Source: Salinibacter ruber DSM 13855
GTDB taxonomy: Bacteria; Bacteroidota; Rhodothermia; Rhodothermales; Salinibacteraceae
Direction of reading: 5' to 3'
DNA: 64,000 nucleotides
Assembly (NCBI RefSeq): GCF_000013045.1
Contig: NC_007677.1
Coordinates: 1,364,001 to 1,428,000 of the forward strand
Shown here one piece after another: positions 16,283 to 38,196 of this stretch (its first letter is position 1; every line of letters begins with the position of its first letter). The notes beneath the pieces are model-generated. The model saw only the letters and a list, made by a program, of their open reading frames with translations. It did not search any database and had not been told where the DNA came from. The position numbers were made by a program, and so were the translations under genes.

Positions 16283-16549
16283 ATGATCGAAACCGACAAC
16301 CCCGTCTCCGGCGACAGTACACCCGACGACGATACAGAGGTCTCCCTCTCGGAAGCCGCCCAGGCCGTTATGGACGTGCTTGTGGAATGCCACGGAAACC
16401 TGGAGGCCGTGCGCCACCGCTTGGACGGAGATGAGATCGACGTGGACATGGATTCCTCTGAGTTACCGACTCCCCGTGAGCAGGTGCTCCACATCGCTGC
16501 CCAGCTGGAATCGTGTGCCGGGGCTTTGCGGGACGCAGAGAGGGGGTGA
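16283..16549 (+). CDS. Small acidic hypothetical protein upstream of hsdM
   Basis: 88 residues, very acidic. Residues 20-45 (SLSEAAQAVMDVLVECHGNL) and the C-terminus (REQVLHIAAQLESCAGALRD) are helical. It lies 134 bp before hsdM on the same strand and just after an IS982 end, so it could be a small regulator of the restriction locus or an unrelated gene. No family recognised. Confidence 0.5.
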   Translation: MIETDNPVSGDSTPDDDTEVSLSEAAQAVMDVLVECHGNLEAVRHRLDGDEIDVDMDSSELPTPREQVLHIAAQLESCAGALRDAERG

Positions 16550-16682
16550 GGACTCAGTTTCGCATACGGTTCCACAGTCCAGAGAGCCTCTGATTCATCC
16601 GATCGGGTCTGCATCTCCGCCCGGTTGGTTTTACGTTCGAAACGCGCTCAACTCTCCGCTGAACTACACTCACACTTGTTGC

Positions 16683-18251
16683 ATGAGCGAACAGCAGAAT
16701 CTCTTTGGCCGGAAGCTCCACGCCGACCTCGAAATCGAAGACGAGCTCTGGGAGGCCGCCGTGGATCTCCGGGGCACCATCGCTCCGGCGAACTACAAGA
16801 ACTATGTCCTGCCGCTTCTCTTCCTCCGGTACCTGTCTCTCCGCTACGAGGAGCGCCGGGAGGAGCTGGAGGAAAAAGCCGAAGATCCGGACTCATACTA
16901 CGTCGAGGAAGACCTGAGAGAAGTAGATGAGTACCGTCAGGAAGGGGCGTTTCTGATTCCAGAAGAAGCCCGCTGGGACTACCTCGTCGAGCACGCCCAG
17001 GACGACGACATCAAGGTGAAGGTCGATCGCGCAATGGAGCTGTTGCAGCAGCGCTACGACGACCTAGAAGGCGTCCTTCCACCGATGTATGCCGGGAGCA
17101 ACTTGACCCAGGAAAACCTTGCCAACCTGATCAACCTGTTCTCCCGGGACATCTTCACCGGCCAGGGCAAGCAGCAGGCCGATGTTCTAGGCCGAGTCTA
17201 CGAGTACTTTATCACCAACTTTGCCGATACCGAAGGCTCGAAAGGTGGGGAGTTCTTCACCCCGCGATCGGTGGTCCAGGCGCTGGTGGCCATGCTAGAG
17301 CCGGAGGATGGCTCGAAGATCTTTGATCCGGCATGTGGGTCTGGCGGGATGTTCGTACAGGCCGCCGAGTTCACCGATGACAAAGAGAGCCTGTCGTTCT
17401 ATGGGCAGGAGAGCGTCGACCAAAACCTCCGCCTCTGCAAGATGAACCTGCTCATGCACGACTTGCAGGGGGACTTGGAATCTGGAGACTCCCTTTTGAA
17501 CGACAAGCATGAGGGCTTGAAGGCGGACTACGTGATCGCCAATCCGCCGTTTAACATCCGGAGTTGGGGCGCAGACGAGATTCCGGGCGATGACCCGCGC
17601 CTCCAGGTGGGCGACCGTCGCCTCCAGCCCACGGACTCCAATGCCAATTACATGTGGATGATGCACTTCCTGCATCACCTGGAGGACGGCGGCACGGCGG
17701 GGTACGTGATGGCCAACGGGTCGATGACGACGAGCCTCACGAATGAGGAACCGGTCCGAAAGGCCCTCGTCGACGAGAGGTTTGTGGACTGCATCGTGCA
17801 GCTCCCCGATAAGCTCTTTTTCGGCACCGGGATTCCGGCGTGCCTCTGGTTTCTCTCCCGAAACCGGGATGGCTCCAACGGGGAGCGGGAGCGGTCCGAC
17901 GAAATTCTTTTTCTCGACGGCCGAGATATGGGGGAGCTTCCCGAGCGGGCCAAGCGAGTCCTTACCGACGACGAGATTGGACGGCTGGAGACAGCATACC
18001 GCAACTTCCGGATGCCCGATGAAAAGGTCGAGGAAGAGCCGGGCTTTTCCGGTGTGGCCTCACTGGAGGAAGTTCGATCGAACGACTACAAGCTCACACC
18101 GGGACTCTACGTCGGCTTCGAGGACGACGATGGGGACCGGGTGCCCTTTGAGGTGAAGATGCCCCAACTCGTCGATGAACTGGAGGATCAGTTTGCTGAA
18201 TCGGAGCGGCTGCAAAGTCAAATAGAGAAGCAGTTAGCTGACCTACTGTAA
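16683..18251 (+). CDS. hsdM: Type I restriction-modification methyltransferase subunit HsdM
   Basis: 522 residues from ATG at 16683; a longer in-frame extension lacks a sensible start and overlaps the upstream gene. Residues 1-150 form the HsdM N-terminal helical domain (YVLPLLFLRYLSLRYEERRE). The SAM-binding motif DPACGSGGMFVQA is at about 216-228 and the catalytic NPPF motif in VIANPPFNI at about 285-293, an N6-adenine methyltransferase signature. With HsdS it methylates the recognition sequence, and with HsdR it forms the restriction complex. It is followed by hsdS after 42 bp. Confidence 0.95.
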   Translation: MSEQQNLFGRKLHADLEIEDELWEAAVDLRGTIAPANYKNYVLPLLFLRYLSLRYEERREELEEKAEDPDSYYVEEDLREVDEYRQEGAFLIPEEARWDYLVEHAQDDDIKVKVDRAMELLQQRYDDLEGVLPPMYAGSNLTQENLANLINLFSRDIFTGQGKQQADVLGRVYEYFITNFADTEGSKGGEFFTPRSVVQALVAMLEPEDGSKIFDPACGSGGMFVQAAEFTDDKESLSFYGQESVDQNLRLCKMNLLMHDLQGDLESGDSLLNDKHEGLKADYVIANPPFNIRSWGADEIPGDDPRLQVGDRRLQPTDSNANYMWMMHFLHHLEDGGTAGYVMANGSMTTSLTNEEPVRKALVDERFVDCIVQLPDKLFFGTGIPACLWFLSRNRDGSNGERERSDEILFLDGRDMGELPERAKRVLTDDEIGRLETAYRNFRMPDEKVEEEPGFSGVASLEEVRSNDYKLTPGLYVGFEDDDGDRVPFEVKMPQLVDELEDQFAESERLQSQIEKQLADLL

Positions 18252-18293
18252 TTAAGCCCATCTACCGAGCAATACTAACCACTCTCTTGTACT

Positions 18294-19520
18294 ATGGCGA
18301 AATGGATTAGGAGGATCCTTGATGATCTACCAGTCGATTTTATTGACGGTGACCGTTCTTCTCGGTATCCGACTAGGGATGAACTGAAAGATGAGGGATT
18401 TCTATTCTTGAGCACTAAAAATGTGACAAAGAAAGGTCTAAGACTTGACGATTTGGATTTCGTTAGTCCTTCTAAGTTTGAAGAAATAAAGAAAGGTAGA
18501 CTTAGGCCCAACGACATACTTATAACTACCCGCGGAAGCATTGGTAAAGTTGCTCTTTTTGAGTCTCCAAAGTATAAGACGGGCCTAATAAATGCTCAAC
18601 TTCTGATACTTCGATCAGACGATGAAAGTCTGAGCCCTTCGTTTCTTTACTACACAATGAAGTCTTCCAGCTTTCAAAAAAGGCTGAAGAACTATGCATC
18701 TGGTTCAGCTCAACCTCAGATTCCAGTGAGGGATTTGAAGGAGATTGAGATTGAGGTCCCACCACTCACCATCCAACACCGAATCGCCAACATCCTCGGG
18801 GCCCTCGACGACAAGATCGAGCTGAACCGCCGGATGAACGAGACCCTGGAGGAGATGGCCCAGACACTGTACTATCACTACTTCGATGGGAGCGTGGAGG
18901 GGGGTGACATCGGACTTGAAGAGCTCGTCGAAATCAAACCCCGAATGCCAGTGCCCGATGACGATGAGGTGCTGACTTACGTGGGGATGGCCGATGTCGA
19001 GCCCAACCGTATGAGCGTCACTGACTATGGGAAGAAGGAATATACCTCTGGTCGGCGGTTTGTGAACCACGACACCCTCATGGCACGGATCACACCGAGC
19101 CTAGAAAATGGGAAAACCGCCTTCGTCGATTTTCTTGACGACGGGGAGATGGCATTTGGATCTACAGAGTTCACTGTCATGCGGGCCCGAGAGGGCACAA
19201 GCCCCTGCTTCGTCTACTGCTGTGCCCGTGATGAGCGGTTCCGAGAGTATGCCATCTCGACGATGACGGGCTCTTCCGGACGACAGCGGGTCCAGGAGAA
19301 TTTGCTTGGCGAGTATGGCTTCGAGGACTTCGATCAGAGCCGAATGGACCAATTCCATAATCGAGTAGAGCCGCTCTTTAAGCTCATCCGGTCCAACACG
19401 TCGGAAAACCAAACCCTCGCCGAAACCCGCGACTACCTCCTCCCGAAGCTGATTTCGGGAGAGATCGAGGTGGAGGCGGCTGAGGAAATGGCTGACGAGG
19501 CTGTCGACGCGTCCGCGTAG
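18294..19520 (+). CDS. hsdS: Type I restriction specificity subunit HsdS
   Basis: 408 residues with two target-recognition domains. TRD1 (about 1-150) ends in SAQPQIPVRDLKEIEIEVPP, followed by the conserved helix HRIANILGALDDKIELN. TRD2 (about 200-370) ends near SENQTLAETRDYLLPKLISG, the second conserved helix. It determines the DNA sequence recognised by the HsdM/HsdR complex. The DNA of TRD1 (about 18294-18745) is clearly more AT-rich than the conserved regions and TRD2, which points to replacement of TRD1 by recombination, the usual way specificity changes in type I systems. Confidence 0.93.
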   Translation: MAKWIRRILDDLPVDFIDGDRSSRYPTRDELKDEGFLFLSTKNVTKKGLRLDDLDFVSPSKFEEIKKGRLRPNDILITTRGSIGKVALFESPKYKTGLINAQLLILRSDDESLSPSFLYYTMKSSSFQKRLKNYASGSAQPQIPVRDLKEIEIEVPPLTIQHRIANILGALDDKIELNRRMNETLEEMAQTLYYHYFDGSVEGGDIGLEELVEIKPRMPVPDDDEVLTYVGMADVEPNRMSVTDYGKKEYTSGRRFVNHDTLMARITPSLENGKTAFVDFLDDGEMAFGSTEFTVMRAREGTSPCFVYCCARDERFREYAISTMTGSSGRQRVQENLLGEYGFEDFDQSRMDQFHNRVEPLFKLIRSNTSENQTLAETRDYLLPKLISGEIEVEAAEEMADEAVDASA

Positions 19521-19557
19521 GCATTTCCCGAACCTTCTGTCTGATTGGTGGTCTGCT

Positions 19558-20331
19558 ATGTGGTATTACGCCGTCGACGGCGAAAAGCATGGGCCCGTTA
19601 CCAAAGACGAAATTCAGGGTTTGATTGACAACGGTGAGTTGGGCCTAGATAATCTCGTGTGGAGCAGAGGGATGGAGGACTGGAAAACTGCCTCTGAGGT
19701 TGAGGACATCCATCCAAGCCCACCTCCGCTTCCCGACGACGAAAAATCCCCATCCCCCCCTCCAATCTCGAAGAAAGAGCATAGCCAGGTAACCAAACAG
19801 CAGGATTCCAAACCTGAGACCGACGAGCCCACTTCTCCGTCTCAAGAGGACGACATCCACACAGACGGAGATGCGACGTTGTCGGCAGAGTCCACCGATA
19901 GAGTTGGCTCCAAGACAGTTGGCATTACCTATGCAGGCTTTGGAAGCCGGCTGGTAGCATACGGGATCGATATACTGATCACTGTCGTCGTGTCTGTCAT
20001 TCTGGGAGCCGTCGCACTCTCTGTGGACTCCTCTGCGGATCCTGATCTTCTGACACGAGGAATTGGATCTCTGGTGACCTGGTTTTACTTCGCAGGGTTT
20101 GAAAGTTCAAAGCGACAGGCTACGCCTGGGAAGCAATTGATGGGATTGAAGGTGACGGACGCGAACATGGGCTACGACGGGATCGGATTTCGGAAGGCTT
20201 CCGGACGGCACTTCGGAAAAATTATCTCGGGAGCACCCTTGCTGCTTGGCTTTATCATGGCCGCGTTTACGGAGAGGCACCAGGCCTTGCATGACAAGAT
20301 GGCCGGGTGTCTTGTTGTTAAAAACTCCTGA
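19558..20331 (+). CDS. GYF_2-like domain / RDD family membrane protein
   Basis: 257 residues. Residues 1-50 form a GYF_2-type module (WYYAVDGEKHGPVTKDEIQ, VWSRGMEDW), a small protein-interaction domain. Residues 50-115 are a Pro/Ser/Glu linker. Residues 120-255 form an RDD domain with R and D in helix 1 (GFGSRLVAYGIDILI), the TPGKQLMGLKV block and HDKMAGCLVV near the end; about three membrane helices. RDD proteins are common but poorly understood. It lies 38 bp after hsdS and is co-oriented with the restriction genes, so it probably rides in the same operon. Confidence 0.8.
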   Translation: MWYYAVDGEKHGPVTKDEIQGLIDNGELGLDNLVWSRGMEDWKTASEVEDIHPSPPPLPDDEKSPSPPPISKKEHSQVTKQQDSKPETDEPTSPSQEDDIHTDGDATLSAESTDRVGSKTVGITYAGFGSRLVAYGIDILITVVVSVILGAVALSVDSSADPDLLTRGIGSLVTWFYFAGFESSKRQATPGKQLMGLKVTDANMGYDGIGFRKASGRHFGKIISGAPLLLGFIMAAFTERHQALHDKMAGCLVVKNS

Positions 20332-20370
20332 ACGGACAGTCTCAATCTTTTCCACAAGAGTGATTCAGCA

Positions 20371-21399
20371 ATGTCGGACCTTGGAACGCTCGAAAAGCTT
20401 GACCTTCGATCTGTCTGGGAGAATGAGGCAAGGGATTTTACGCCCTGGCTTGCGCAGGAGAAGAATCTCAACCTCCTCGGGGACACAATTGGAATCGAGC
20501 TACAACTTGACAGTACAGAGAAGAGCGTTGGGCCCTTCAACGCGGATGTGCTTTGCAAAGATACCATAGATGATCAATGGGTCCTGATCGAAAACCAACT
20601 GGAACGAACCGATCATCCTCATCTTGGTCAGCTCTTGACGTATGCCGCGGGTCTCGATGCCGTCACCATCGTGTGGGTTGCCCGTCAGTTTTCAGACCAG
20701 CACCGAAGCGCCCTCGACTGGTTGAATAAGATTACCGATGAGGACATCAACTTCTTTGGCTTGGAGATTGAGCTTTGGCAAATCGGGGACTCCTCTCCTG
20801 CCCCGAAGTTCAACATTGTCTCGAAGCCGAATGACTGGTCAGAGACTGTCAGCTCGGCGGCCAGGGGTGAAGAGTTAAGTGAAAGCGATAAGCTCCGTCG
20901 AGAATACTGGGCTACGCTAAAGGAACGTCTGGAGAGTCGAGAGAGTCGCGTCCAACCTCGAACACCCAGACCCAACAGCTGGGCTCGCTATGCGGTAGGA
21001 CGCACGAGATGCCGTCTTACTGCACGCATTAGCTCTCGAAATGAAAAGACTTCAGTCGAACTCACGCTAACCGATGAGGAAGAGGCTGAGCCTCTCTTCC
21101 ATCTTCTTCAAGCGGATAGAGAGACCATCGAGGAGGAAATTGGAAAAGAACTTGATTGGCAGCCGAAGCCGGACATGAAGCGATTTGTTGTTGCTTACGA
21201 GTGGCCGGCTAACCCTACTGATCGAGAAGCGTGGCCCCAGCAGCACCGCAAACTTGCAGGGATGTTAGACGCCTTTCACCGTGCCTTTGCTCCTCGGTTG
21301 AGGCAGTCGAACCCGGACGACTGGACGGAAAAGACAGAAGAGTCTTCAATGCAGGAGGCCAACGTACGAGACGAAAATCCAGAGACCACCCACTTATAA
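20371..21399 (+). CDS. DUF4268 protein with nuclease-like N-terminal domain
   Basis: 342 residues. The N-terminal half contains GPFNADVLCKD, WVLIENQLERTDHPHLGQ and LLTYAAGLDAVTIVWVA, a pattern typical of DUF4268-associated PD-(D/E)XK-like domains in which the ENQ segment replaces ExK. The C-terminal half (about 200-310) matches DUF4268 by its WARYAVGRTRCRLTARIS and KRFVVAYEW segments. Such proteins are often found inside or next to restriction loci. It sits 39 bp after the RDD gene and 96 bp before hsdR. Its activity is unproven; it may be an accessory nuclease or a defence gene carried in the restriction cassette. Confidence 0.75.
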   Translation: MSDLGTLEKLDLRSVWENEARDFTPWLAQEKNLNLLGDTIGIELQLDSTEKSVGPFNADVLCKDTIDDQWVLIENQLERTDHPHLGQLLTYAAGLDAVTIVWVARQFSDQHRSALDWLNKITDEDINFFGLEIELWQIGDSSPAPKFNIVSKPNDWSETVSSAARGEELSESDKLRREYWATLKERLESRESRVQPRTPRPNSWARYAVGRTRCRLTARISSRNEKTSVELTLTDEEEAEPLFHLLQADRETIEEEIGKELDWQPKPDMKRFVVAYEWPANPTDREAWPQQHRKLAGMLDAFHRAFAPRLRQSNPDDWTEKTEESSMQEANVRDENPETTHL

Positions 21400-21495
21400 A
21401 TACGAAGTGTGCCCTCATGGTCTTGACTTTGGGCCTGCAACGTAGACATCTCTGCTAGAAGCGTCCCCTCCTCTCAGCTTTCTGCTCGCTCCAGT

Positions 21496-24400
21496 ATGTC
21501 TGACCAACTGCAGATAGCACTTCTGGAAGAACAGCCTCTCGGTGATCCTGACGAGAACCTGTTCGAGGAGACCACCATCGAGCGCCTGGAGAACCTTGGC
21601 TACCGGTCGGTCCACGGGCGAGATCTTCGTGATCCCGAGACCTTTCCGGACACGGAGGTCGTCCACCGGCCCACGCTCCGGCGGTTTTTCCGGGCACAAT
21701 ACCCATTTCTCGATGAGACGGCCCTCACGCAAGCTGTCCAGACGGTAGCCAGTCCCGATGGAGTTGGCCTAGCCCAGCGTAACAAGGAGGCCCACCGGCT
21801 CATCACCGAAGGGTTTGACCTTCCTTATGAGAAGGACGATGGGACGGAGGCTTACGAGCACGTCTACCCCATCGACTGGGAGCGTCCCGGGGAGAACGAC
21901 TTCTGGGTCGTACAACAGCTCTCAATTCACGGGGACAATGACCGCCGCCCGGACCTGATCATCTACGTCAACGGGCTGCCGCTGGTCGTCTTCGAGCTGA
22001 AAAATCCCTACCGGGAGGACGTAGATGTCGAAAACGCGTTCAACCAGCTCCAACACTACAAGCAGGAACTCGGTCGCCTCTTTTCCTTCAACGCGTTTTG
22101 CGTCTTGTCTGACGGCACGGAGACCCTACAAGGTGTCCACTCCGCCTCCCGGGAGTGGTTCAAGCCCTGGATGAGCGCCGATGGGGAGACGATTGCCGAC
22201 GACCGGCGCCAAAGCATCGACACGCTGATTGAAGGCCTCTTCCCGAAGGAGCGGCTTTTGAGTTACGTCCGCAACTTTATCGTTCACGAGACCGTCGGGG
22301 GCGGCATCCGGAAGAAGGGGGCGCTCTACCACCAGTTCTTCGGCGTCCGTCGGGCGGTGGAGGAAACCCTCCGAGCCACCGGCCCGGGCGGGGACCAAAA
22401 GATCGGGGTCATCTGGCACACGCAAGGGGCAGGGAAGAGCCTATCGATGGTCTTCCTGGTCGGCATCCTGCGGCGGCGCCTAGGCAACCCGACCATCCTG
22501 ATCGAGGTGGACCGCAATGACCTTGATGAGCAGCTCTACGACGCCTTTGTGGCAGCGAAGCCCCTCGTCGGGTCCGTTCACCAGGCCGAGGGCATCGAGG
22601 ACCTCCGGCAGCGGCTCCAAACCGAGGGCGGGGAGGTGGTCTTTACGACCATCGAGAAGTTTCAGCTGAAGGGTGAGGAGACCGAGCATCCCCAGCTCAC
22701 AGGCCGAGACGATGTCGTCGTCATTGCGGATGAAGCCCACCGTACGCAGTACGGCTTCGAGGGGGAGGTGCGCTACGACGAGGAAACCGGAGAGCACTTC
22801 ACCGCCTACGGCTACGCCAAGTACCTCCGCGAGGCCCTGCCCAACGCGTCGTTTATCGGCTTCACCGGGACACCGATTGCAGAGGATGACCGGGACACCA
22901 CGGCGGTCTTCGGCGACCTCATCCACTCCTACGACATGAAGCAGGCCAAGAAAGACGGGGCCGTCGTTGGGATTCAGTACGAGCCCCGCCTCATCGAACT
23001 GAAGCTCACCAACGAGAACATCGACGAGGAGCTCAGCGAGATTGCCGAGGGGGAGGACGTGGAGGTCGAAAAGCAGAAGTGGTCGGCCATGGAAGAGGCC
23101 GCGGGCACCGACGAGCGGCAGTCCCAGCTGGCAGAGGATCTGATCGAGCATTTTCAGAAGCGCTGCCAGTCGATCGAGGGGAAGGGCATGATCGTAGGGA
23201 TGAGCCGGGAAAACTGCGTGGGTTTGTATGAGGCCATCGTAGACCAGCGTCCGAGCTGGCATGACCCGGCCCTCGACCAGGGGAAGATCAAGGTTGTCAT
23301 GACGGGCAACATCTCCGAGGATCCCCCGGAGTGGAACGAGCGAGGCCACATCACGACCAAACGGCAGCGGGGACAGCTTAAGGAACGGTTCAAGGACCCG
23401 GATGACGAGCTCAAGCTGGCCATCGTCTGCGACATGTGGCTCACGGGCACCAACATCCCGTGCCTCCACACCCTATACATCGACAAGCCGATGAAGGGGC
23501 ACAACTTGATGCAGGCCATCGCCCGGGTAAACCGGGTCTTCCGGGACAAGCCCGCGGGCCTCGTCGTGGATTACATCGGAATCGGGACCGAGCTGAAGAA
23601 GGCCACGAAGCGCTACACGGACCAGGGCTTCGACGAGCCGACGGAGGAACTCGAAGAGGCGGCCTTCGGGCAGTTCGAGGAGGCCCTGTCTGCGGTTCGA
23701 GAGACGCTCCCCGGCGGCACCGATAAAGATGACATCGCGGGCTGGCGGGACCTCTCGAAGATCGACTTCGAGGACTTCGTAGGGCGCCTGTACGACTTTT
23801 ACTTAGAGACCGACGACCGGCGGGACGACTTCCTCAAAAAGGAGAAGCGGCTCCGGAAGGCCCACAGCCTCATCCAGCACCGAGATGAAGTCGAAGACTA
23901 TGCCGATGAGGTCGCCTTCTACCAGTTCGTGCGGACCCAGCTCAAACGGACGAAGGAAGGCGGAGGCGGTGATGGCCGAGACGAAGATGAAGACCGGGCC
24001 GCGGCCATCCGGGATCTCGTCGAGCGCAGCATCGACGCGGAGGAGGCGGTCGACATCTACGAAGCTGCGGGCCTGGACAAACCCGATATTTCTATCCTCG
24101 ATGAGGAGTTCTTGGAGGAGTTCAAGTCGGGGGATGGGCGAGAGAACCTGCGCATCAAGGTCCTGGAGAAGCTCCTTCAAGACGAGATCCAGGTCCGAAA
24201 GCGGGAGAACCTAGAGAAGTACCGCTCGCTCCAAGAGATTCTGGAGGAGACCCTGGAGAAGTACCGCCGCAATGCCATCACGGCGGCGGAGGTGATGAAG
24301 GAGCTGGTGGAGATCAAGAAGGAGGCGATGGAAGAAGACGACCGGATGGAGGAGTATGATCTCTCCAACGAGGAGATCGCTTTTCTCGATGCCATTGATG

Positions 24401-24645
24401 GGGTCCGCGAGGACGTCTACGACATGGACTTCCTCTGCGACCTCGTGCGGGAGATTGTCGATGTGGTCAAGAGCAACGTGGAGGTGGATTGGACGAAGCC
24501 CCACCGGGAGAACGTCCGGGCTGGAGTCCGAAGTGCCGTCAAGCGCGTTCTCCGCCGAAATGAGGTGGATGGAGACGACATGCAGGCCGTCCAGGAGGAA
24601 ATTATGGAGCAGGCCGAATCGCTGTACGGGGACTGGCCTGAATAA
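21496..24645 (+). CDS. hsdR: Type I restriction endonuclease subunit HsdR
   Basis: 1049 residues, normal length for HsdR. The N-terminal nuclease site reads RPDLIIYVN and VFELKNP (about 152-168; Asp, Glu-x-Lys). The helicase motor follows with Walker A TQGAGKS (about 308), DEAH in VVIADEAHRTQ (about 409), FIGFTGTPI (motif III, about 454) and ARVNRVFRDKPAG (motif VI, about 677). The C-terminus (about 790-1049) is the long helical HsdM/HsdS-binding region. HsdR translocates DNA and cuts unmethylated DNA. The gene is intact, so the locus looks functional. Confidence 0.95.
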   Translation: MSDQLQIALLEEQPLGDPDENLFEETTIERLENLGYRSVHGRDLRDPETFPDTEVVHRPTLRRFFRAQYPFLDETALTQAVQTVASPDGVGLAQRNKEAHRLITEGFDLPYEKDDGTEAYEHVYPIDWERPGENDFWVVQQLSIHGDNDRRPDLIIYVNGLPLVVFELKNPYREDVDVENAFNQLQHYKQELGRLFSFNAFCVLSDGTETLQGVHSASREWFKPWMSADGETIADDRRQSIDTLIEGLFPKERLLSYVRNFIVHETVGGGIRKKGALYHQFFGVRRAVEETLRATGPGGDQKIGVIWHTQGAGKSLSMVFLVGILRRRLGNPTILIEVDRNDLDEQLYDAFVAAKPLVGSVHQAEGIEDLRQRLQTEGGEVVFTTIEKFQLKGEETEHPQLTGRDDVVVIADEAHRTQYGFEGEVRYDEETGEHFTAYGYAKYLREALPNASFIGFTGTPIAEDDRDTTAVFGDLIHSYDMKQAKKDGAVVGIQYEPRLIELKLTNENIDEELSEIAEGEDVEVEKQKWSAMEEAAGTDERQSQLAEDLIEHFQKRCQSIEGKGMIVGMSRENCVGLYEAIVDQRPSWHDPALDQGKIKVVMTGNISEDPPEWNERGHITTKRQRGQLKERFKDPDDELKLAIVCDMWLTGTNIPCLHTLYIDKPMKGHNLMQAIARVNRVFRDKPAGLVVDYIGIGTELKKATKRYTDQGFDEPTEELEEAAFGQFEEALSAVRETLPGGTDKDDIAGWRDLSKIDFEDFVGRLYDFYLETDDRRDDFLKKEKRLRKAHSLIQHRDEVEDYADEVAFYQFVRTQLKRTKEGGGGDGRDEDEDRAAAIRDLVERSIDAEEAVDIYEAAGLDKPDISILDEEFLEEFKSGDGRENLRIKVLEKLLQDEIQVRKRENLEKYRSLQEILEETLEKYRRNAITAAEVMKELVEIKKEAMEEDDRMEEYDLSNEEIAFLDAIDGVREDVYDMDFLCDLVREIVDVVKSNVEVDWTKPHRENVRAGVRSAVKRVLRRNEVDGDDMQAVQEEIMEQAESLYGDWPE

Positions 24646-28409: not shown

Positions 28410-29677
28410 TGAGGCTGAGACGCAGGACGTTTGGTTTCCTGTGAACCGTAGCCAATCCAACGATACGCACCATGGGACAACGCACCTACAGCCGGAGAAT
28501 TTAAGCTCCAAGTCGTACCCGAAGCGCTCCAGTCCGAAGGAACCGACGCGGAGGTCGCCAGGGCCTACGACGTTCATCCTGTTACGCTCTCCGGCTGGAA
28601 GACGAAGCTGAAAGAAAACGGCTCCAGAGCCTTTGGCGGCTCCGACGAGTTGAAGGAGAAGAAGGAGAAAATCGCCAAACTCGAACGCATGGTCGGTCAG
28701 AAGGAAGTCGAAATCGCCCTGCTGAAGAATTTTTTGGGCGAGAGCTGACCACCGCCGAAAAAGTCCGCCTGGTGGATCAGCACAAAGAAGAACACGGACT
28801 GAACCGGTGCCTTGAGGCGATTGATCTGCCGAAAAGCACCTACTACTACCGGAAGAACCGCTCGGATGAGCCTTCCGAAGAAGAGCAAGAGCTGATGGAC
28901 CACATTCGTGAGATTATCGGCGAGCACCCAAGCTACGGCTACCGCCGGATTCTGCCGGAGCTTGAGGAGCGCACCGGTCAGGCGGTCAACCATAAGCGGC
29001 TCAGACGGCTTCTTAGCGAGCATGAGTTGGGGTTGGCCCGTCAGGTGTCGGGGCACAGCCCCTCACCCGTGCAGGAGATTCTCGGCGATGCTGCCGGGAA
29101 CCTCAACCTTGTAGCCGGCCTCGATCCGGGGCCGCTTGAGGCCTTTTCAACCGACTTTACGGAGCTGTCGTACGCGGAGGGAAACCGCAAGGCGTACCTG
29201 ATGGCCGTGGCCCGTCTGGAGAGCTTCTGCGGGTCCGGGTTGGGCGGTCGGGCCGAGCGGGAATCGCAAGCTCGCCATGCGCTGCTGGAAGCAGGTTCGC
29301 GAACGGATGGCGAGCCTGGACGAGAAGCTCGGCGGGAAGATCATTCATCATGACCCAGGCAGCGTCTACACCAGCTATCGGTGGCTACGGGCGATCCTCC
29401 TCGATGACGAAATGCGCATCAGCTACTCCGAAAGCGGGGCGAAAGGCAATCCCTGGATCGAGTCGCTCTGGGGACGGACGAAGGGTGAGGTCGGCTCACG
29501 GATCACGGAAGCCTCGTCCTTGCCGGCCCTGCGAACCGTCTTTGACGAGCGGTTCATCTGCTATAACTAGGAGCGGGGGCACTCCTCGATCGGGCAGATT
29601 CCACCCCAAAAACATCTCGGGCAAACTCTCTTTGCTTACGAATCAGAACCTTAAATCGCTGCTGCGTCTTAGCCTGA
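28410..29677 (+). mobile_element. IS3-family element, inactive
   Basis: Terminal repeats TGAGGCTGAGACGCAG (28410) and, on the other strand at 29677, TCAGGCTAAGACGCAG match at 14 of 16 positions and enclose 1268 bp, a normal IS3 size. OrfA starts at about 28471 (MGQRTYSR) but one inserted A near 28490 breaks it; the rest reads EFKLQVVPEALQSEGTDAEV, SGWKTKLKENG and ALLKNFLGES. OrfB (28772 onward) has the catalytic Asp in STDFTEL, then a frameshift near 29250, then HHDPGSVYTS and PWIESLWGRTKGE (second Asp and Glu). A TAG at 29568 ends the frame early. Confidence 0.85.
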
Positions 29678-29731
29678 AATAGTCGCTCAACTGGCCCAAA
29701 AATTCGGGCACGCATCCGGATAGCTGATAGC

Positions 29732-30787
29732 TCATAAGCTTTGGAGTGTCTCCAAGTTTTTGCGGAGACGAGCGTTCTGATGAGTGACCAGTTCAGCATG
29801 ATCAGCACGCTTCGCGAAATCACCCAGTACGGTTCGAACGGCAATGCTAGACCCGAAGGTGATGGCCATAGTGGTCGGCTCGCCGACAAGAGCAGCCTCC
29901 CGGAGTGCCGACTCTACGACAAACCCAGCTCCCAAGCTTCCGCCGGAAAGTGCTGTTTCCTCAGCAGCGTCCTCAAAGGCCTGCTGGGTGTTCTTTGCAC
30001 CCTTGTAGACCTGAAAGCCTTCCCTCATACTATGAAGGGCACTGGCTGTGAGCGTACCGACAAAGATCTCCTCGAACAGATGCTCAAAAGCCTCGGGGCC
30101 TACTGCGTCAACTCCAGCTTCAACAATCTCCGTAGCGTGCCATGAGGGAGAATCGATAGGGATGAGATTCAGATCCAATCCTTGCTCTGCCGCCTGGCTC
30201 TGAACCTCCTCAAAGACGTTCGATGGGACAGCAAACTCTATGTCCGCAACGACCTCACCGTCCGGAGTTGTGATCTCACTAGCCTCAAGCTCGGCCTGTG
30301 TTTCTGCCATCTCGCTCGTGATATAGTCCGGGTCGCCGGATGTCTTAACATCGATGTACCGAGTGTCGCCGCCTGGGGGCTGATACACGATGTCATATCC
30401 CTTCTGGTCACTTAACTCAGCAAGCTGAACCTTCCCTTCGACCTCTTCGGAAGCGGCTTCCAGGAACTGGTTTTCTCCAACTCGCCCCTTAATCGTGCTG
30501 ATCCATTGCTGACTGACGCCGCTCCCACCTTCACGGAGCGCTTCCGCGATGCGTTCTCGCGCCTCCTGGTATGAATGGACCTCACCACTCGTCAAATTTC
30601 GGAAGGCATCCCGCAGCTCTTCAGAGACCTGATCATTCAGTCCATCCTCGTGAATGAGATCGGCCAGAACGACGCCCGGCCCTATCGAGCCATGTAGCAG
30701 ATCGTCGGCCTTCCACCGGTGGAAGATACCGTCGGCGTCTCCGGCGTCGTACCTGTCTGCAAACTCTTCAATGGTAGTTTCAGGCAT
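29732..30787 (-). CDS. Putative nuclease-domain protein with hydrophobic C-terminus
   Basis: 351 residues. The first 95 are acidic and helical. Residues about 100-150 carry GRVGENQFLEAA, QKGYDIVYQPPGG and YIDVKTSGDPDY, which fits a PD-(D/E)XK-like core: Glu in the first helix, Asp in YDIVY and D-x-K in IDVKT. The C-terminal 120 residues contain Gly/Ala-rich, weakly hydrophobic helices (GGSLGAGFVVESALREAAL and TMAITFGSSIAVRTVLG), possibly membrane-inserting. The combination suggests a nuclease delivered to or anchored in a membrane, but no known toxin family is recognised. It is preceded by a coiled-coil gene on the same strand (52-bp gap). Confidence 0.6.
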   Translation of the reverse strand: MPETTIEEFADRYDAGDADGIFHRWKADDLLHGSIGPGVVLADLIHEDGLNDQVSEELRDAFRNLTSGEVHSYQEARERIAEALREGGSGVSQQWISTIKGRVGENQFLEAASEEVEGKVQLAELSDQKGYDIVYQPPGGDTRYIDVKTSGDPDYITSEMAETQAELEASEITTPDGEVVADIEFAVPSNVFEEVQSQAAEQGLDLNLIPIDSPSWHATEIVEAGVDAVGPEAFEHLFEEIFVGTLTASALHSMREGFQVYKGAKNTQQAFEDAAEETALSGGSLGAGFVVESALREAALVGEPTTMAITFGSSIAVRTVLGDFAKRADHAELVTHQNARLRKNLETLQSL

Positions 30788-31461: not shown

Positions 31462-31917
31462 CTACAGGACCATTGACTTAATTTCATGTACGTCCTCCTC
31501 CGAAAGTGATCCACTGTCGCGCATTTCACGGGCTTCGAAAAGGACTTCTTCGACACTGTCGTCCTCTATTCCATGAATCAAACGTTTCAAGAGACTTTTC
31601 TTCACGTCTCTGAACTCTTCCTCGTCTATCATTTCGGTTTCTCGAAGCTCTTTGTAGTCTCGTACTTTTTTGGAGAACTCCTCTATACTCAAGGGATTAG
31701 CTCTTTCACCGTCGTGGCCTCCCTGTCGTCTCCAGTTCATCTCCGCCCGTGGAGAAGGTTCCACTCCATTCTCGATTATATTAATTGCTGCGAACCCCAA
31801 TACTGGACTTACGAGCAGGGAGATTGCAAACCACTTGATCGCGCCTCGATCCATTCGGTTCGCGTAGTAACCCATCGCTACGCTCAAGGATAACCAAAAT
31901 AGAAGGGCTGGAATCAT
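31462..31917 (-). CDS. Membrane-anchored SHOCT-type protein (paralogue 5)
   Basis: 151 residues from ATG 31917; the longer frame starts with TTG. Two membrane helices flank the loop ANRMDRGAIKW, the same N-terminal module as the zinc-ribbon proteins at 1970-7481. The C-terminal half has FSKKVRDYKELRETEMIDEE and EFRDVKKSLLKRLI, a SHOCT-like helical hairpin, and a second similar hairpin (EMRDSGSLSEEDVHEIK). It is a clear homologue of 33060-33533. The two are separated by RNase H and IS1 debris, consistent with a segmental duplication. Confidence 0.7.
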   Translation of the reverse strand: MIPALLFWLSLSVAMGYYANRMDRGAIKWFAISLLVSPVLGFAAINIIENGVEPSPRAEMNWRRQGGHDGERANPLSIEEFSKKVRDYKELRETEMIDEEEFRDVKKSLLKRLIHGIEDDSVEEVLFEAREMRDSGSLSEEDVHEIKSMVL

Positions 31918-32053
31918 ACTCCTAGTGTGGGTTTGCAAGTAAAAATTTAGTTAGTAAATTCAAATTGTAAAAACGGTAGAATAAATGTACGAAGGTCCCA
32001 AAAAGCTATGATTATTTGGGTGTTCGACAGTTCCACCGACATCTGCGGGCCTT

Positions 32054-32093
32054 TGCTTATGCTAGATCATCAGTGCTTATGCTAGATCATCAG
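32054..32093. repeat. 20-bp perfect tandem repeat
   Basis: TGCTTATGCTAGATCATCAG occurs twice without a gap (32054-32073 and 32074-32093). The second copy runs into the RNase H fragment, whose sequence starts with the same AGATCATCAG, so the repeat marks a duplication junction. Confidence 0.8.
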
Positions 32094-32200
32094 CCTCCTC
32101 GTTTTCTGAGTCGCCGGAGCGCCCTTTTACTTTTGTCCACTGGATACAATGCTTTTCGACCTGACTGTGGACTGCTCTGACGAGATTTTTGGTAGTGGCT
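32082..32200 (-). pseudogene. Fragment of RNase H gene (duplicate of 33735-34658)
   Basis: On the minus strand the frame reads QVEKHCIQWTKVKGRSGDSE and NEEADDL, matching QVDRHEVEWTKVEGHSGDPE and NEEADDL of the intact RNase H protein. About 35 codons remain. The conserved His of GHSGD is changed to Arg, as expected for relaxed selection. It lies upstream of one SHOCT gene exactly as the intact RNase H gene lies upstream of the other. Confidence 0.8.
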
Positions 32201-32274
32201 CAACAAGTAGTGAACTTCTCTATTTGAACCAAGCCGCGTCTGGCTCATCAGTACATCCGGCCCGGTGATCAAAG

Positions 32275-33010
32275 AGACCTATGAGTGCAGAGGATGCGGC
32301 TCCTCCTGTGTCGTCGAAAAACGGCCACAGCGCTAGTGGCTCCCAGTAGCAAGATTGAAAGGATTGGGGGGCGCACAAGGTGTTTGGTTTTAGAACCTCG
32401 AGGCTACCCAGAAGAGGAGAAAGAGAAGATTCTTCGGACCTACTGCAAACGCGATTCAGAACGGGCGATTAGCCGCATCTTTTGAGTCAGTCGCTATCGC
32501 CTTAAACCGATGGCTTGAAAAAGGGACGCGAAGCCGATCCATTAATCGATGGGGTCAAGCTGGCCGAAGGAAACGATATCCTTGATCCCGATGAATGCTA
32601 CGCATATGTCCGAAAACGGTCAAATAAACGATGGCTCAAGGCCCAACTCTGTCGCAGGACCCGACAAGTCGTGGCGTTCGTGATCGGGGACCGTTCGGCC
32701 ATAACCTGCGCCCGGCTCTGGAGCCAAATTCCGGAAGGTTACCGCCAAGCCAAAAGCTTCAGCGACTTCTGGAAGCCCCCTGAAGCGACAGCTTCTCCCA
32801 GCGTTTGAGAACGATCCTGGCCATCAACAGGTCGGAAAGTGCGGTGGCGAGATGGCCCACGTCGAAAGACTCTTCGGACGACTTCGGCAGAAGTTGGCCT
32901 GATACCTCAGGCGGACGTGAGCAGCCCTTAGTCAGAAATATTGCTCTATCTGACGACGAAACTGTTCGCGGGGTAGCACAATGAACAAGCTCATGATGTC
33001 CAACCGATAG
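32275..33010 (+). pseudogene. IS1-family transposase remnant
   Basis: Scattered across frames are YECRGCGSSCVV (the N-terminal zinc-finger block of IS1 InsA), LDPDECYAYVRKRSNKRWLK, LCRRTRQVVAFVIGDRSAIT and SQIPEGYRQAKSFSDFWK (InsB), and GEMAHVERLFGRLRQKLA (catalytic Glu region). At least four shifts or stops separate them. The order and spacing are those of a whole IS1, so this is a full-length but dead copy inserted between the two SHOCT/RNase H units. Confidence 0.75.
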
Positions 33011-33059
33011 CGATCGCCTTATCTCGTACGGTGAGCATATCATTACCCTTCGGGATAGG

Positions 33060-33533
33060 CTAAAGCACCTCCGACTTGATTTCAAGCACATCCTCTTCCG
33101 AAAGTATCCCGTTGTCTCGCATCTCTCTGACCTCAAATAGAACTTCCTCTGGACTGTCTCCCTCCATTCCATGGGTTAGGCCCTCAAGAAGCCTCGACTT
33201 CACGTCTTTGAACTCTTCCTCGTCTATCATATTGGTCTCTCTGAGCTCTTTGTAATTACCCACCTTCTCGGAGAACTCGTCTACGGTGAGGGGGTCGACT
33301 CTCTTCACTTCAATACCAGTGTCTTCTGGTTGTCCGCTCGAACTATCAATAGGTGCCTGGTTTGACGAAGGTGAAAAATCCGACTCGCTCTCCAAAACAA
33401 CGAGTGTTATGAATGCAATGAGTGGACTTATCAATATGGCTATTGCAAACCATTTGATCGGGCCTCTATCCCTTTCTCGCGCGAAATATGCAATTCCGGC
33501 GCTGAATGCTATCCAGAGTAAAAAAACGACCAT
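33060..33533 (-). CDS. Membrane-anchored SHOCT-type protein (paralogue 6)
   Basis: 157 residues. Helix 1 (about 2-18), loop ARERDRGPIKW and helix 2 (about 28-50) form the shared membrane module. A Ser/Gln/Pro linker (about 50-80) is followed by the SHOCT-like hairpin YKELRETNMIDEEEFKDVKS and a second hairpin (EMRDNGILSEEDVLEIK). The C-terminal half is close to identical in layout to 31462-31917. It lies 201 bp downstream of the RNase H gene on the same strand, perhaps in one transcript with it. Confidence 0.72.
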   Translation of the reverse strand: MVVFLLWIAFSAGIAYFARERDRGPIKWFAIAILISPLIAFITLVVLESESDFSPSSNQAPIDSSSGQPEDTGIEVKRVDPLTVDEFSEKVGNYKELRETNMIDEEEFKDVKSRLLEGLTHGMEGDSPEEVLFEVREMRDNGILSEEDVLEIKSEVL

Positions 33534-33734: not shown

Positions 33735-34658
33735 TCAGATAGCATCTGGACAATAGGAGCGTCCTTCCGGAAAGCCACGAACTGCTGCTTCGGCCAGATC
33801 ATCAGCCTCCTCATTTTCTGGGTCGCCGGAGTGCCCCTCCACTTTCGTCCACTCAACTTCATGCCGGTCGACTTGCCTGCGGACAGCTTCGACGAGGGCA
33901 CGGTTCTCACTGGCATTCCATTCGCCCGAAGCAATTTTGATCGCGTATCGGGAGTCTGAACGGATCTCGACCTCCGAATCGCTTGGAATCTCAGACAGGG
34001 CCTCTCCAATTGCCCACAGTTCCATACGGTTGTTGGTCGTGTCGTCCACTCGGCCCATGATGCGCCGAACCTCTCCATCATGGACGATGACAGCGGCCCA
34101 TCCGCCAGGTCCCGGATTACTGATGCAGGCCCCGTCGGTTGAGATGCGATAGCGACCCTCAGGAGTGGAGGATGGGATAAGAGAAGGGGTGATGCACTTG
34201 GGAATTTTGATTCGTCGGTTGGTCTGCTGAATCGCGATCACGGGACCGAACACTTGGTCCCATTTCTCCGGATCCCAGGTGTACCAAATCTCCTCTTCGG
34301 CGTCCCATCGGAATCCGATCTGCTTGAGAGCTTTTCTGATGGGATAGGTGTTACCTGCCACCTCGTACCGCTGTCCACCGCTGGGTTCTGGAATCTCGCC
34401 ACCGGTCGTTTCCTGCTCACGCCCGACGAGCCGAATGATCTCCTCTTCGACCTCGGAAGCAGTCCTCTCGATATCGATGACGGTTCCGCCGTGCTTATCG
34501 ACCAGTTTCGTGAGGGTCGAGTACCGCTGGTGGACAGGCTTGAGAACGAGCCGGCAAACGCCGCCGGGAAGGTCGGTAACCACCCCAAGTTCATGTCCAT
34601 TGAAACGGATTGTATTCGGATCTAACTCGTTTGGGTCTATGTCATCTATGTCGGCCAT
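33735..34658 (-). CDS. RNase HI-domain protein with DUF5710-like N-terminal unit
   Basis: 307 residues. The C-terminal 140 residues are an RNase HI domain with all four acidic catalytic residues in place: Asp175 (STDGACISNPGPGGW), Glu213 (NRMELWA), Asp235 (RSDSRY) and Asp286 (EADDLAEAA), plus the His of EGHSGDPENE. It should cleave RNA in RNA-DNA hybrids. The N-terminal 160 residues are extra: residues about 100-135 (YPIRKALKQIGFRWDAEEE, WYTWDPEKW) resemble the small DUF5710-like module seen in plasmid proteins. It is about twice normal RNase HI length. The polymerase-like gene is upstream on the same strand after 342 bp. Confidence 0.85.
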   Translation of the reverse strand: MADIDDIDPNELDPNTIRFNGHELGVVTDLPGGVCRLVLKPVHQRYSTLTKLVDKHGGTVIDIERTASEVEEEIIRLVGREQETTGGEIPEPSGGQRYEVAGNTYPIRKALKQIGFRWDAEEEIWYTWDPEKWDQVFGPVIAIQQTNRRIKIPKCITPSLIPSSTPEGRYRISTDGACISNPGPGGWAAVIVHDGEVRRIMGRVDDTTNNRMELWAIGEALSEIPSDSEVEIRSDSRYAIKIASGEWNASENRALVEAVRRQVDRHEVEWTKVEGHSGDPENEEADDLAEAAVRGFPEGRSYCPDAI

Positions 34659-35000: not shown

Positions 35001-37115
35001 CTATTCCAGAAATTCAGAGCCATAGTCCACCGTCAAGTCGGTTTCGATGGGAGGGCCCTCCAACTGGGCGGATAGTGCGCTGCAACCCTTCTGGAGGGCC
35101 TCACAGGCTTTCTCGTAGGTGTTCCGATACTTCCTGGACTTGTGTCGTTTTGGTTTAATCGTGACGCCGTCGTGCTGCCAAAGGCCGAATCGCAGTTCGT
35201 CGTCTTCCAGGACAGCTTCTCCTACTGGTAGCATGACCCGCAGCTCCGCGTTCTGCATATGCTCCGCGAGCACGCTTTTCGCGTCCCGCTCGTCGCTCGT
35301 CTCGATGCGTCGGCCAAAGCAGTCCTCGATTCCGCCCTGTGTGTCGATCCGACTGAGGATCTCCTCGCGCTTCTGGAGGAGCTGGCCCACGAGTGGGTGG
35401 CGGAAGAGTGCCTCACCAATCTTGCTCACTGCCTTCTTCGGCTCCGAACGGTTACCGAGGAAAAGCCTGACCATCATCCTCGCTGATTCAAGGTACTCGG
35501 CGCGGTCGGTAGAGTCCGCATATGGAGTGCCGAGTGTGCGTAGGTTCTGCTTCCTCATGCCGAAGAAGAGACCGTACGTGAAGCCCTTGAGCACACTCTT
35601 TACCTGTTCAAAATCTTGTTCGGGGTTGTACCTGTGGGCAGGTAGCTCTCGGCTGAGCCATCCGGTCAGTTCGTGCCACCAGTCCCTATCGATTGATTTC
35701 CAGTCGGCGTTAACAGACTGTGGTTGCTGTGGGCCCTGCGACTGTCGGGCGTCGAGACTAGCGGTATCGGCGGGCGAGGAGAGGAAGTCCCGCAGATTTT
35801 CCAAGTCGCCCCACGACGAGGCAGCTAGGGCCAAATGGGCAGAGGACATGTCGACTTCCAGGTAGTCGTCGAACACGGCCTGCCGCATCTCCGTCGGCAG
35901 CGAAGCGAGACTCGGGCCGGCGGGCGTGAGGCGAAGTGTCCTGCTTGTGAACTTATAAAGCGGTTTCGGTCGATCTGCGATGGTCCGCAACTGGCTCTGG
36001 TACGGAATCCCGCGTCCATCGGTGGAGCTTTTGCGCTGGCGGGCTAGCCTGGCTAGTTCGGACTTCGCCCTCTTGACCAGTCGCGTAAAACGCTGCTTTG
36101 GCAGCTGGTTGAGACGCTGCTGTAGTTGCTGGACGCGGACGGGCACGTCCCGGTGGTGCGTAGTCCGATCGGCTTTCTGCCGGGTGTCCTTCCGCCGATC
36201 GCTGCGGTGCCTTGGGTGATCCAGGGTCCACTTCTGGAGGTTTGCCTTGTCTCCCTGTATGAACACCTCAGCGCATTCTGCCTCGAACGCTCGCTCTACT
36301 GGTGCCGGGAGGCTCAGGTCGCGTATCTGCGTGCAGTTTCTCCCTTTCCGGTGACTAACGATCTCGAACGGGGGATCTGCATCGGTATCCTCTCTGAGCG
36401 TACCCTGTAGGCGGCAAGCAAGCTGGTACACTTTTGCCTCACCCCTACTCGCTAAGCTCGGGGCCTGGCGGATGTGGGCGACCGCCTGCTGGTGGAAGGG
36501 CAGATATCCCGAGCGGTCGTCGGGTCGGGCGACCAACCCAAGGTAAACCAAGGCCCGGCGAAGCGTCTCGTCGCGGGCTACATGCGGCAGGTGACTGTCG
36601 ATTGCGCGGTAGAGGTCCTCGGAAATGAGGTTCGGGATCGTCAGACGCCCTTTCTCATCCCCGTGACGGCTTCGATATCGCCAAAGTCGTACGACCTCTA
36701 CACTGGTTGCACAACCGGTTTCGTCCAAAAATTCCGCCCCAAAAGTAGCCATGAGTCGGCTTCGACCCTCTTGAACCTCCGCTAAGGCCCGTCTTGCTCT
36801 TTTATGCTTCGTTCTTTCGGTATGCCATGTTGAAATACCATGTGGGGTATATGCCCGCCCCAAAGAACAGCTTTCGTTCGAGGAGTGGGTGGCATACCGT
36901 GTCTTGGTAGAAGAAGGTGGGGAAGTACGAGTAGTAGAAACAGGTATAACCGGATGAGACGTATCTTCAGGATCAGGATTTAAAAGCTCTGAACCCGTGT
37001 TACTGGCAGGACGGTGTAGATTGGCGGGAGGTAAGGATGCGGGGAGTTGCCAGCGAGATACGTCCTCGGTTGAGTGGCCGGTGTCGCTTAAAGGGGATCG
37101 ATGATCGTCGTGCAT
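35001..37115 (-). CDS. Divergent family-A DNA polymerase-like protein
   Basis: 704 residues; an internal ATG at 36752 (Met122) may be the true start because the first 120 residues are low-complexity. The C-terminal 300 residues show the palm motifs of family-A polymerases: motif A EVDMSSAHLAL (Asp422), motif B KSVLKGFTYGLFFGM (Lys506, Lys510, Tyr514) and motif C QHDGVTI (Asp649). Compared with E. coli Pol I, Arg754 is Lys, Phe762 is Tyr, Tyr766 is Phe, and the steric-gate Glu710 is His427. I find no 3'-5' exonuclease motifs. The N-terminal region is of unknown fold. It may be an element-encoded replication, primer-making or RNA-copying enzyme. Confidence 0.68.
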   Translation of the reverse strand: MHDDHRSPLSDTGHSTEDVSRWQLPASLPPANLHRPASNTGSELLNPDPEDTSHPVIPVSTTRTSPPSSTKTRYATHSSNESCSLGRAYTPHGISTWHTERTKHKRARRALAEVQEGRSRLMATFGAEFLDETGCATSVEVVRLWRYRSRHGDEKGRLTIPNLISEDLYRAIDSHLPHVARDETLRRALVYLGLVARPDDRSGYLPFHQQAVAHIRQAPSLASRGEAKVYQLACRLQGTLREDTDADPPFEIVSHRKGRNCTQIRDLSLPAPVERAFEAECAEVFIQGDKANLQKWTLDHPRHRSDRRKDTRQKADRTTHHRDVPVRVQQLQQRLNQLPKQRFTRLVKRAKSELARLARQRKSSTDGRGIPYQSQLRTIADRPKPLYKFTSRTLRLTPAGPSLASLPTEMRQAVFDDYLEVDMSSAHLALAASSWGDLENLRDFLSSPADTASLDARQSQGPQQPQSVNADWKSIDRDWWHELTGWLSRELPAHRYNPEQDFEQVKSVLKGFTYGLFFGMRKQNLRTLGTPYADSTDRAEYLESARMMVRLFLGNRSEPKKAVSKIGEALFRHPLVGQLLQKREEILSRIDTQGGIEDCFGRRIETSDERDAKSVLAEHMQNAELRVMLPVGEAVLEDDELRFGLWQHDGVTIKPKRHKSRKYRNTYEKACEALQKGCSALSAQLEGPPIETDLTVDYGSEFLE

Positions 37116-37815: not shown

Positions 37816-37830
37816 AGGGAGAGAGCGTTG

Positions 37831-38196
37831 TGGAGATGCCGGGAGTCGAACCCGGGTCCGTGTAGCCGCACAGGCAAACCTCTACCTGCATAGTGAATGC
37901 ATTGGCGGTTCACGTCGCCCGTCTGCCCATTCACAAGGCCAGGGCGGCGCTGAGACTGATTAGATTTCACCGGCGCATCCGCAGTCGGAGAACGCGGCGG
38001 CTACACCCTTTTTGTCGATGTCTCACGCTCCCCAAGGGCCAGGAGCGACGCGAGACAGATGGGGGCTGTTACGCCGCCATCGCGTACGAATAATCGTCCG
38101 CAGTTACAGTTCCTGACAGGTTTTACGAAGCGAATCAGGCTGCTCGGCAGGTCAGTCTGCTGCACGCTTACTACACGTCGAAGCCGTGTCATCCCC
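37831..38196 (-). ncRNA. ssrA: tmRNA (ssrA)
   Basis: 366 nt. The 5' end GGGGATGACACGGCTTCGAC and the 3' end GGTTCGACTCCCGGCATCTCC-A form the tRNA-like part with a 7-bp acceptor stem; CCA is not encoded. The tag frame ends at TAA (38069-38071) and reads ...TADDYSYAMAA, a tag with the usual small hydrophobic C-terminus that targets proteins to ClpXP-type proteases. The resume codon is not certain (GCG at 38101 or one a few codons earlier). tmRNA rescues stalled ribosomes. The 3' end is a common integration target, and the island to the left begins right after it. Confidence 0.95.

Follow-up and report, generated by a model that had tools for sequence, protein, structure and literature searches.

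The self-synthesizing mobile elements described in the literature searched (polintons, casposons and pipolins) encode family-B DNA polymerases, and the polymerase of the pipolins is a primer-independent PolB (PMC7385651). In the Thermus element ICETh2, loss of the primase-polymerase that the element encodes reportedly left its replication unaffected (PMC7693054). Within family A, the residue equivalent to Glu710 of PolA is highly conserved and blocks ribonucleotides, and one phage enzyme of this family is active although Ser occupies its Glu883 position (PMC9324360). Here we analyzed a 64,000-bp stretch of the Salinibacter ruber DSM 13855 genome (contig NC_007677.1, positions 1,364,001 to 1,428,000; the window below) and describe a gene whose product is, by profiles and a structural model, a family-A DNA polymerase that has diverged strongly and lacks an exonuclease, and is predicted to synthesize DNA. 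The enzyme probably serves the replication of a family of plasmid-like elements that integrate, and would copy element DNA in them. The genome (3.59 Mb) consists of two contigs, of which the larger has 3,551,823 bases. The gene and its parts are as follows.

35001..37115, minus strand: family-A-type DNA polymerase gene, 704 amino acids as called, open throughout
35004..35990, minus strand: palm-fingers-palm polymerase core, residues 376-704
35991..36260, minus strand: helical linker or thumb-like region, residues ~286-375, from the secondary structure of the model (thumb putative)
36261..36641, minus strand: predicted winged-helix DNA-binding-like domain, residues ~159-285, from the AlphaFold model
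35826..35858, minus strand: motif A EVDMSSAHLAL, with catalytic Asp422 and His427 at the steric-gate position
35559..35600, minus strand: motif B (O-helix) KSVLKGFTYGLFFG, Lys506-Gly519
35157..35177, minus strand: motif C QHDGVTI, with catalytic Asp649

Identification of a family-A DNA polymerase

Single-sequence searches with the window protein gave no polymerase match in Pfam, PHROGs, NCBIfam, PDB, phages or two contig collections, and one weak match among plasmids. Nearly all family members escape Pfam, PHROGs and NCBIfam; the Pfam DNA_pol_A model detects one of the 15, weakly, and in the window genome it finds one canonical polA without detecting the element polymerase gene. We gathered relatives from Rhodothermales genomes, including a congeneric one in S. 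altiplanensis, from one Deinococcus plasmid and from one viral contig. A profile of seven C-terminal cores, run against PDB with hmmsearch, matched Taq Pol I (E 5e-6), followed by Pol theta and Pol nu, in an alignment that spans the Arg668 motif and motifs A, B and C; every significant match was a family-A DNA polymerase. A near-full-length profile of 15 sequences retrieved family-A polymerases again, more weakly (E 0.0013). By hhalign, the family aligned to a PolA profile of 12 host PolA proteins with E 1.8e-6 to 1.6e-5 and scores of 45-56, against 11-21 for 15 column-shuffled decoys (maximum 21.4) and 15 for the reversed profile.

The AlphaFold model (610 residues, built from an alignment of 14 sequences with the Deinococcus sequence left out) has a mean predicted local distance difference test score (pLDDT) of 77.5, and its C-terminal third is mostly above 90. 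Foldseek lists 50 PDB matches for this model, every one a family-A DNA polymerase (best E 4e-7), and the viral list is headed by phage family-A polymerases. Template modelling scores of 0.30-0.39 are modest, which would be expected if no more than ~350 of the 610 residues correspond. No exonuclease was matched in Pfam by the window protein or its relatives, and the model places a winged-helix-like domain in that part of the chain.

These results bear directly on the original prediction, which had been made from the sequence of the window by itself. It described the protein as family-A-like and devoid of an exonuclease domain, proposed a profile search with the C-terminal part, and named a predicted structure lacking a palm-fingers fold as refuting evidence. 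The profile search, the hhalign scores relative to decoys, and the palm-fingers fold recovered by AlphaFold and Foldseek all agree with the family-A assignment, as the Pfam result and the N-terminal model do with the missing exonuclease. The three motifs it proposed lie where it placed them. In motif A, Asp422 is followed at +5 by His427. In motif B, Lys506, Lys510, Tyr514, Phe518 and Gly519 correspond to Arg754, Lys758, Phe762, Tyr766 and Gly767 of Pol I, and in motif C, His648-Asp649-Gly650 to His881, Asp882 and Glu883. All four substitutions it pointed out are present (His at the gate, Lys for Arg754, Tyr for Phe762, Phe for Tyr766). Two further family-A landmarks that it had not listed are Arg395 (~Arg668) and Gln621 (~Gln849).

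Its account of the N-terminal part, about 400 residues of unknown sequence in place of the exonuclease domains, holds in part. The region is free of exonuclease, but it may be nearer 250 residues long, and residues ~159-285 resemble a winged helix. The G+C content of codons 1 to ~158 is 0.54-0.60 at second positions and 0.43 at third positions, which is non-coding-like; from codon 159 on, the values are 0.43-0.46 and 0.70-0.75. This composition makes the annotated start doubtful, and the true start may be Met122 (at 36752). Despite the doubtful start, protein similarity to the nearest relative begins at about residue 98.

Integrated, plasmid and phage forms of the family

Four relatives lie in elements bounded by direct repeats that consist of tRNA ends.

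L016 element: 9,367 bp, tRNA-Leu direct repeats of 69 nucleotides
L041 element: 6,509 bp, tRNA-Lys direct repeats of 53 nucleotides
L015 element: 6,071 bp, tRNA-Leu direct repeats of 43 nucleotides
L014 element: 14,729 bp, tRNA-Leu direct repeats of 36 nucleotides

Attachment (att) repeats were also sought in L040 and L037 and none were found, while L039 and L017 run into contig borders. Members of a coherent tyrosine recombinase family (Pfam Phage_integrase, E ~1e-28) occur within ~8 kb of the polymerase in 8 of the 11 non-plasmid Rhodothermales loci, a figure to be read as a guide and no test since six of these eight integrases went into building the integrase profile. The integrase family has ~60 matches in 99 genomes, which puts chance proximity at ~0.003 per locus, and it is also found without the polymerase.

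The cargo includes variable defence genes. The L015 element carries a fused PARIS AriAB (E 4e-118, L015:10254-11924), and its recognizable genes are the integrase, the polymerase and PARIS alone, so that the polymerase is the sole replication candidate there. The cargo of other loci includes a type IV restriction enzyme (E 5e-53) in L041, a SIR2-APAZ protein and a short Argonaute (2e-176 and 4e-186, L040:5859-9037) beside the polymerase in L040, an AbiJ-like protein (PDC-S32, 2e-103) in L016, a cytosine methyltransferase in L014, and type I restriction genes in L026. Across the family, PARIS, SIR2/pAgo, Mrr, AbiJ and restriction-modification genes figure in the cargo. Polymerase and integrase recur with different defence genes each time, as a backbone does with its cargo.

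In L014, an open reading frame (ORF) for a DnaE-like DNA polymerase III alpha subunit with an intein (Intein_splicing, LAGLIDADG) lies between the integrase and the family-A polymerase (L014:4474-7923). In L039, a DnaQ-like exonuclease gene (RNase_T, E 7e-12, L039:8538-9212) stands beside the exonuclease-less polymerase and possibly provides proofreading in trans.

The family also occurs on plasmids. The polymerase frame of a 39.8-kb Salinibacter contig runs across the contig ends, which makes this contig circular; parA and a ribbon-helix-helix-like gene directly follow the polymerase, and the contig also has type I restriction genes. A second circular contig, of 55.3 kb (L036/L043, G310:C3) and likewise with an ORF across its ends, holds another polymerase member, parA and BrxA. 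No known Rep family or initiator was found among 20 of the proteins encoded by the two contigs. A further member (L011:4095-5501) is located on pDEIPE01, a 556-kb plasmid of Deinococcus peraridilitoris, and is annotated there as a hypothetical protein. Besides BrxA, the 55.3-kb contig encodes more BREX-like genes, a NACHT/TPR protein and a CoiA nuclease domain. A DUF4268 gene stands beside type I restriction genes both on the 39.8-kb plasmid (L013:9115-10119) and in the window (20371-21399).

The polymerase of L018, a contig from a viral collection, shares 53% core identity with the member on the 39.8-kb plasmid. L018 is a probable phage contig; its terminase and portal were called by eye only, and were not confirmed when their sequences were searched against PDB. 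In the phylogenetic tree, the window protein groups with the L014 element and the 55-kb plasmid, and the 39.8-kb plasmid groups with the L018 phage, both with support of 100/100. Plasmid, integrated and phage forms are thus intermingled in the tree, suggesting that the forms interchange. This context, with relatives in tRNA-bounded elements, on plasmids and in a probable phage, supports the proposal in the original prediction that the polymerase is element-encoded.

Proposed role of the polymerase

The relatives reside on plasmids, on a probable phage and on small elements that integrate, in most cases close to an integrase and defence genes, so the polymerase probably copies element DNA. In the proposed cycle, the recombinase would excise the element, the winged-helix-like N-terminal domain would bind the element origin, and the palm core would copy the excised DNA; the element would then reintegrate at a tRNA gene, with variable anti-phage defence genes as its cargo. 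Having its own polymerase core to copy its DNA, the element is proposed to be independent of host PolA.

The origin-binding step would rely on residues ~159-285, which are modelled as H-H-E-H-H-H-E-E (H, helix; E, strand) with pLDDT mostly above 85. MarR proteins lead the Foldseek matches of this domain, and RepE54 and other plasmid initiators are included. The matches have non-significant E values of 0.4-3, so the domain can be assigned to the winged helices only putatively.

As the main alternative, the polymerase could have an accessory function or one linked to defence, for example in repair, in gap filling of incoming DNA or as a barrier to foreign DNA, while host enzymes replicate the element. 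Defence genes do accompany the polymerase at most loci, and the ICETh2 primase-polymerase, reportedly dispensable for element replication, is associated in the title of that report with defence against environmental DNA (PMC7693054). On the other hand, the defence genes vary by locus whereas the polymerase and integrase recur, which is backbone behaviour, and on the circular plasmid the polymerase adjoins parA. We regard an accessory role as rather unlikely.

Several observations weigh against a replicative role. As ICETh2 illustrates, a polymerase borne by an element need not replicate it. Iterons or an origin were sought beside the gene, and none stood clearly above shuffled controls; the winged-helix assignment comes from a model whose Foldseek matches are not significant. 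The integrases counted near the polymerase overlap with those that built the integrase profile, and the scan for Rep genes covered a part of the plasmid genes. Finally, neither a related integrase nor a second copy of the att sequence, the 3' end of ssrA at the presumptive integration site, was found in the window genome.

The genomic island in S. ruber

The window polymerase sits just inside the 3' end of the transfer-messenger RNA (tmRNA) gene, where the G+C content falls from ~0.66 to 0.50-0.59. The principal other features of this region are listed below.

37830..38196, minus strand: tmRNA gene (ssrA), presumptive integration site, its 3' end being the border of the low-G+C island
33735..34658, minus strand: RNase HI gene with an N-terminal extension (Pfam RNase_H, 2e-29; PDB RNase HI, 1.7e-20)
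16380..24645, plus strand: type I restriction-modification locus in the low-G+C region, with HsdM, HsdS, DUF4268/PDC-S11 and HsdR

Because neither a related integrase nor a second ssrA end was found, we infer the mobility of the window copy from its relatives. The RNase HI gene lies on the same strand, downstream of the polymerase, and its membership in the element is uncertain, given that no counterpart was noticed near other members. The type I restriction-modification locus is possibly cargo of the element.

It is conceivable, although we consider it unlikely, that the window copy is a decaying remnant with no present role, a view compatible with a replication role of the family as a whole. 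The missing integrase and second att copy, the poor coding signal of the first ~158 codons and an ATPase ORF that is broken, also in this island, fit such decay. The polymerase itself, however, has a full-length open frame, retains all family-invariant residues and shares 63% core identity with its nearest relative. The gene is intact and occupies the ssrA end of the island, from which a recognizable recombinase of the related type either has disappeared or was always absent.

Other genes of the window include an AAA/OLD-type ATPase split into two ORFs of 188 and 216 amino acids (24703-26334), apparently a broken defence gene; an HTH_21 transposase in shifted pieces (28772-29682), probably an inactive insertion sequence; a 351-residue protein that weakly matches the NO VEIN C-terminal domain (NOV_C; 29732-30787); and a pair of small, membrane-like proteins (31462-33533) that have SHOCT-like ends and stem from a local duplication with 71% DNA identity. 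The tag peptide encoded by the window tmRNA is ADDYSYAMAA.

Active-site residues and sugar selection

Conservation was assessed in an alignment of 15 relatives, 14 rows of which reach motif C. Arg395, Asp422, Lys510, Gly519 and Gln621 are invariant in all 15, and Asp649, the Asp882 equivalent, is present in 14 of 14. The position of Glu710 is occupied by Gln (11/15) or His (4/15), never by Glu. Lys replaces Arg754 in 13 of the 15 relatives and Tyr replaces Phe762 in 14, the Tyr766 position has Tyr or Phe, and the Glu883 position has Gly in 12 and Glu in two. Tyr at 762 is known from T7 DNA polymerase to lower discrimination against dideoxynucleotides, and the host PolA of the window genome likewise shows Tyr in this stretch.

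Glu710 concerns sugar selection in PolA, which is separate from the catalytic fold. The gate position, never Glu in this family, and the RNase HI gene adjoining the window copy are what might be expected if a relaxed sugar choice allowed the enzyme to use ribonucleoside triphosphates (rNTPs) for primers or RNA synthesis, or to copy RNA. But the gate side chain is still bulky and polar (Gln or His), whereas Gly542 at this position is invariant in an alignment of T7-type RNA polymerases. The profiles match DNA polymerases and no T7-type RNA polymerase, Tyr at the Phe762 position is DNA-polymerase-like (T7 RNA polymerase has Met635), and no RNase HI gene was noticed next to other members. The active site is unusual, judging from its residues, yet acceptance of rNTPs does not follow from them; the rNTP or RNA-copying idea is not specifically supported, and we consider it very unlikely. 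Kinship with T7-type RNA polymerases was evaluated separately by hhalign and rejected (E 0.26-0.41, motif B only).

A broader proposal can be formulated, in which the family represents a class of self-replicating integrative elements that would recognize their own origin by the fused winged helix and start replication with a family-A polymerase and without host PolA, perhaps also with no primase of its own kind beside it, in which case the altered gate would help to lay or extend ribonucleotide primers. Taken as a whole, this proposal appears improbable.

Comparison with known systems

The element polymerase shares with PolA (PF00476) the palm-fingers core, the fold, the order and spacing of motifs, and the equivalents of Arg668, Asp705, Lys758, Gln849 and Asp882. 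It differs by a winged-helix-like N-terminal domain and the absence of exonuclease domains, as well as by Gln or His for Glu710, Lys in most members for Arg754 and Gly in most for Glu883. The natural combination of a Gln/His gate with Gly at Glu883 offers a direct test of sugar selection in family A. The T7-type single-subunit RNA polymerases belong to a related palm superfamily and share the Lys and Tyr of motif B and the HD of motif C, but they have Gly at the gate rather than Gln or His and give no significant profile match.

Among polymerases of mobile genomes, that of phage vB_Tt72 is also a diverged family-A enzyme with a replaced Glu883 (Ser616), and it is active; unlike the element polymerase, it has a 3'-5' exonuclease and still carries Glu (Glu389) at the Glu710 position (PMC9324360). 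Thermus ICETh2 is likewise a bacterial mobile element encoding a DNA polymerase; its enzyme is a primase-polymerase and not a family-A protein, and its loss reportedly leaves element replication unaffected (PMC7693054).

A close parallel is with pipolins, which share with the elements of the relatives the tRNA att direct repeats, a tyrosine recombinase, a hallmark polymerase, variable cargo and an occasional plasmid form (PMC7385651); the att repeats, recombinase and plasmid forms are seen in relatives and not in the window copy. Primer-independent synthesis is a pipolin feature, and the polymerase described here belongs to family A and not to family B, hence the element is no pipolin. No family-A self-synthesizing element was described in the literature searched, most subscription papers being outside its scope, so this negative is weak evidence of novelty. 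If the replication role is right, the gene names a replication protein missed by current annotation, and provides a marker with which small elements carrying anti-phage defence systems could be located in Rhodothermota, Deinococcus and phages. The element would then work by analogy with a pipolin, and such a family-A equivalent would mean that the self-synthesizing lifestyle arose more than once.
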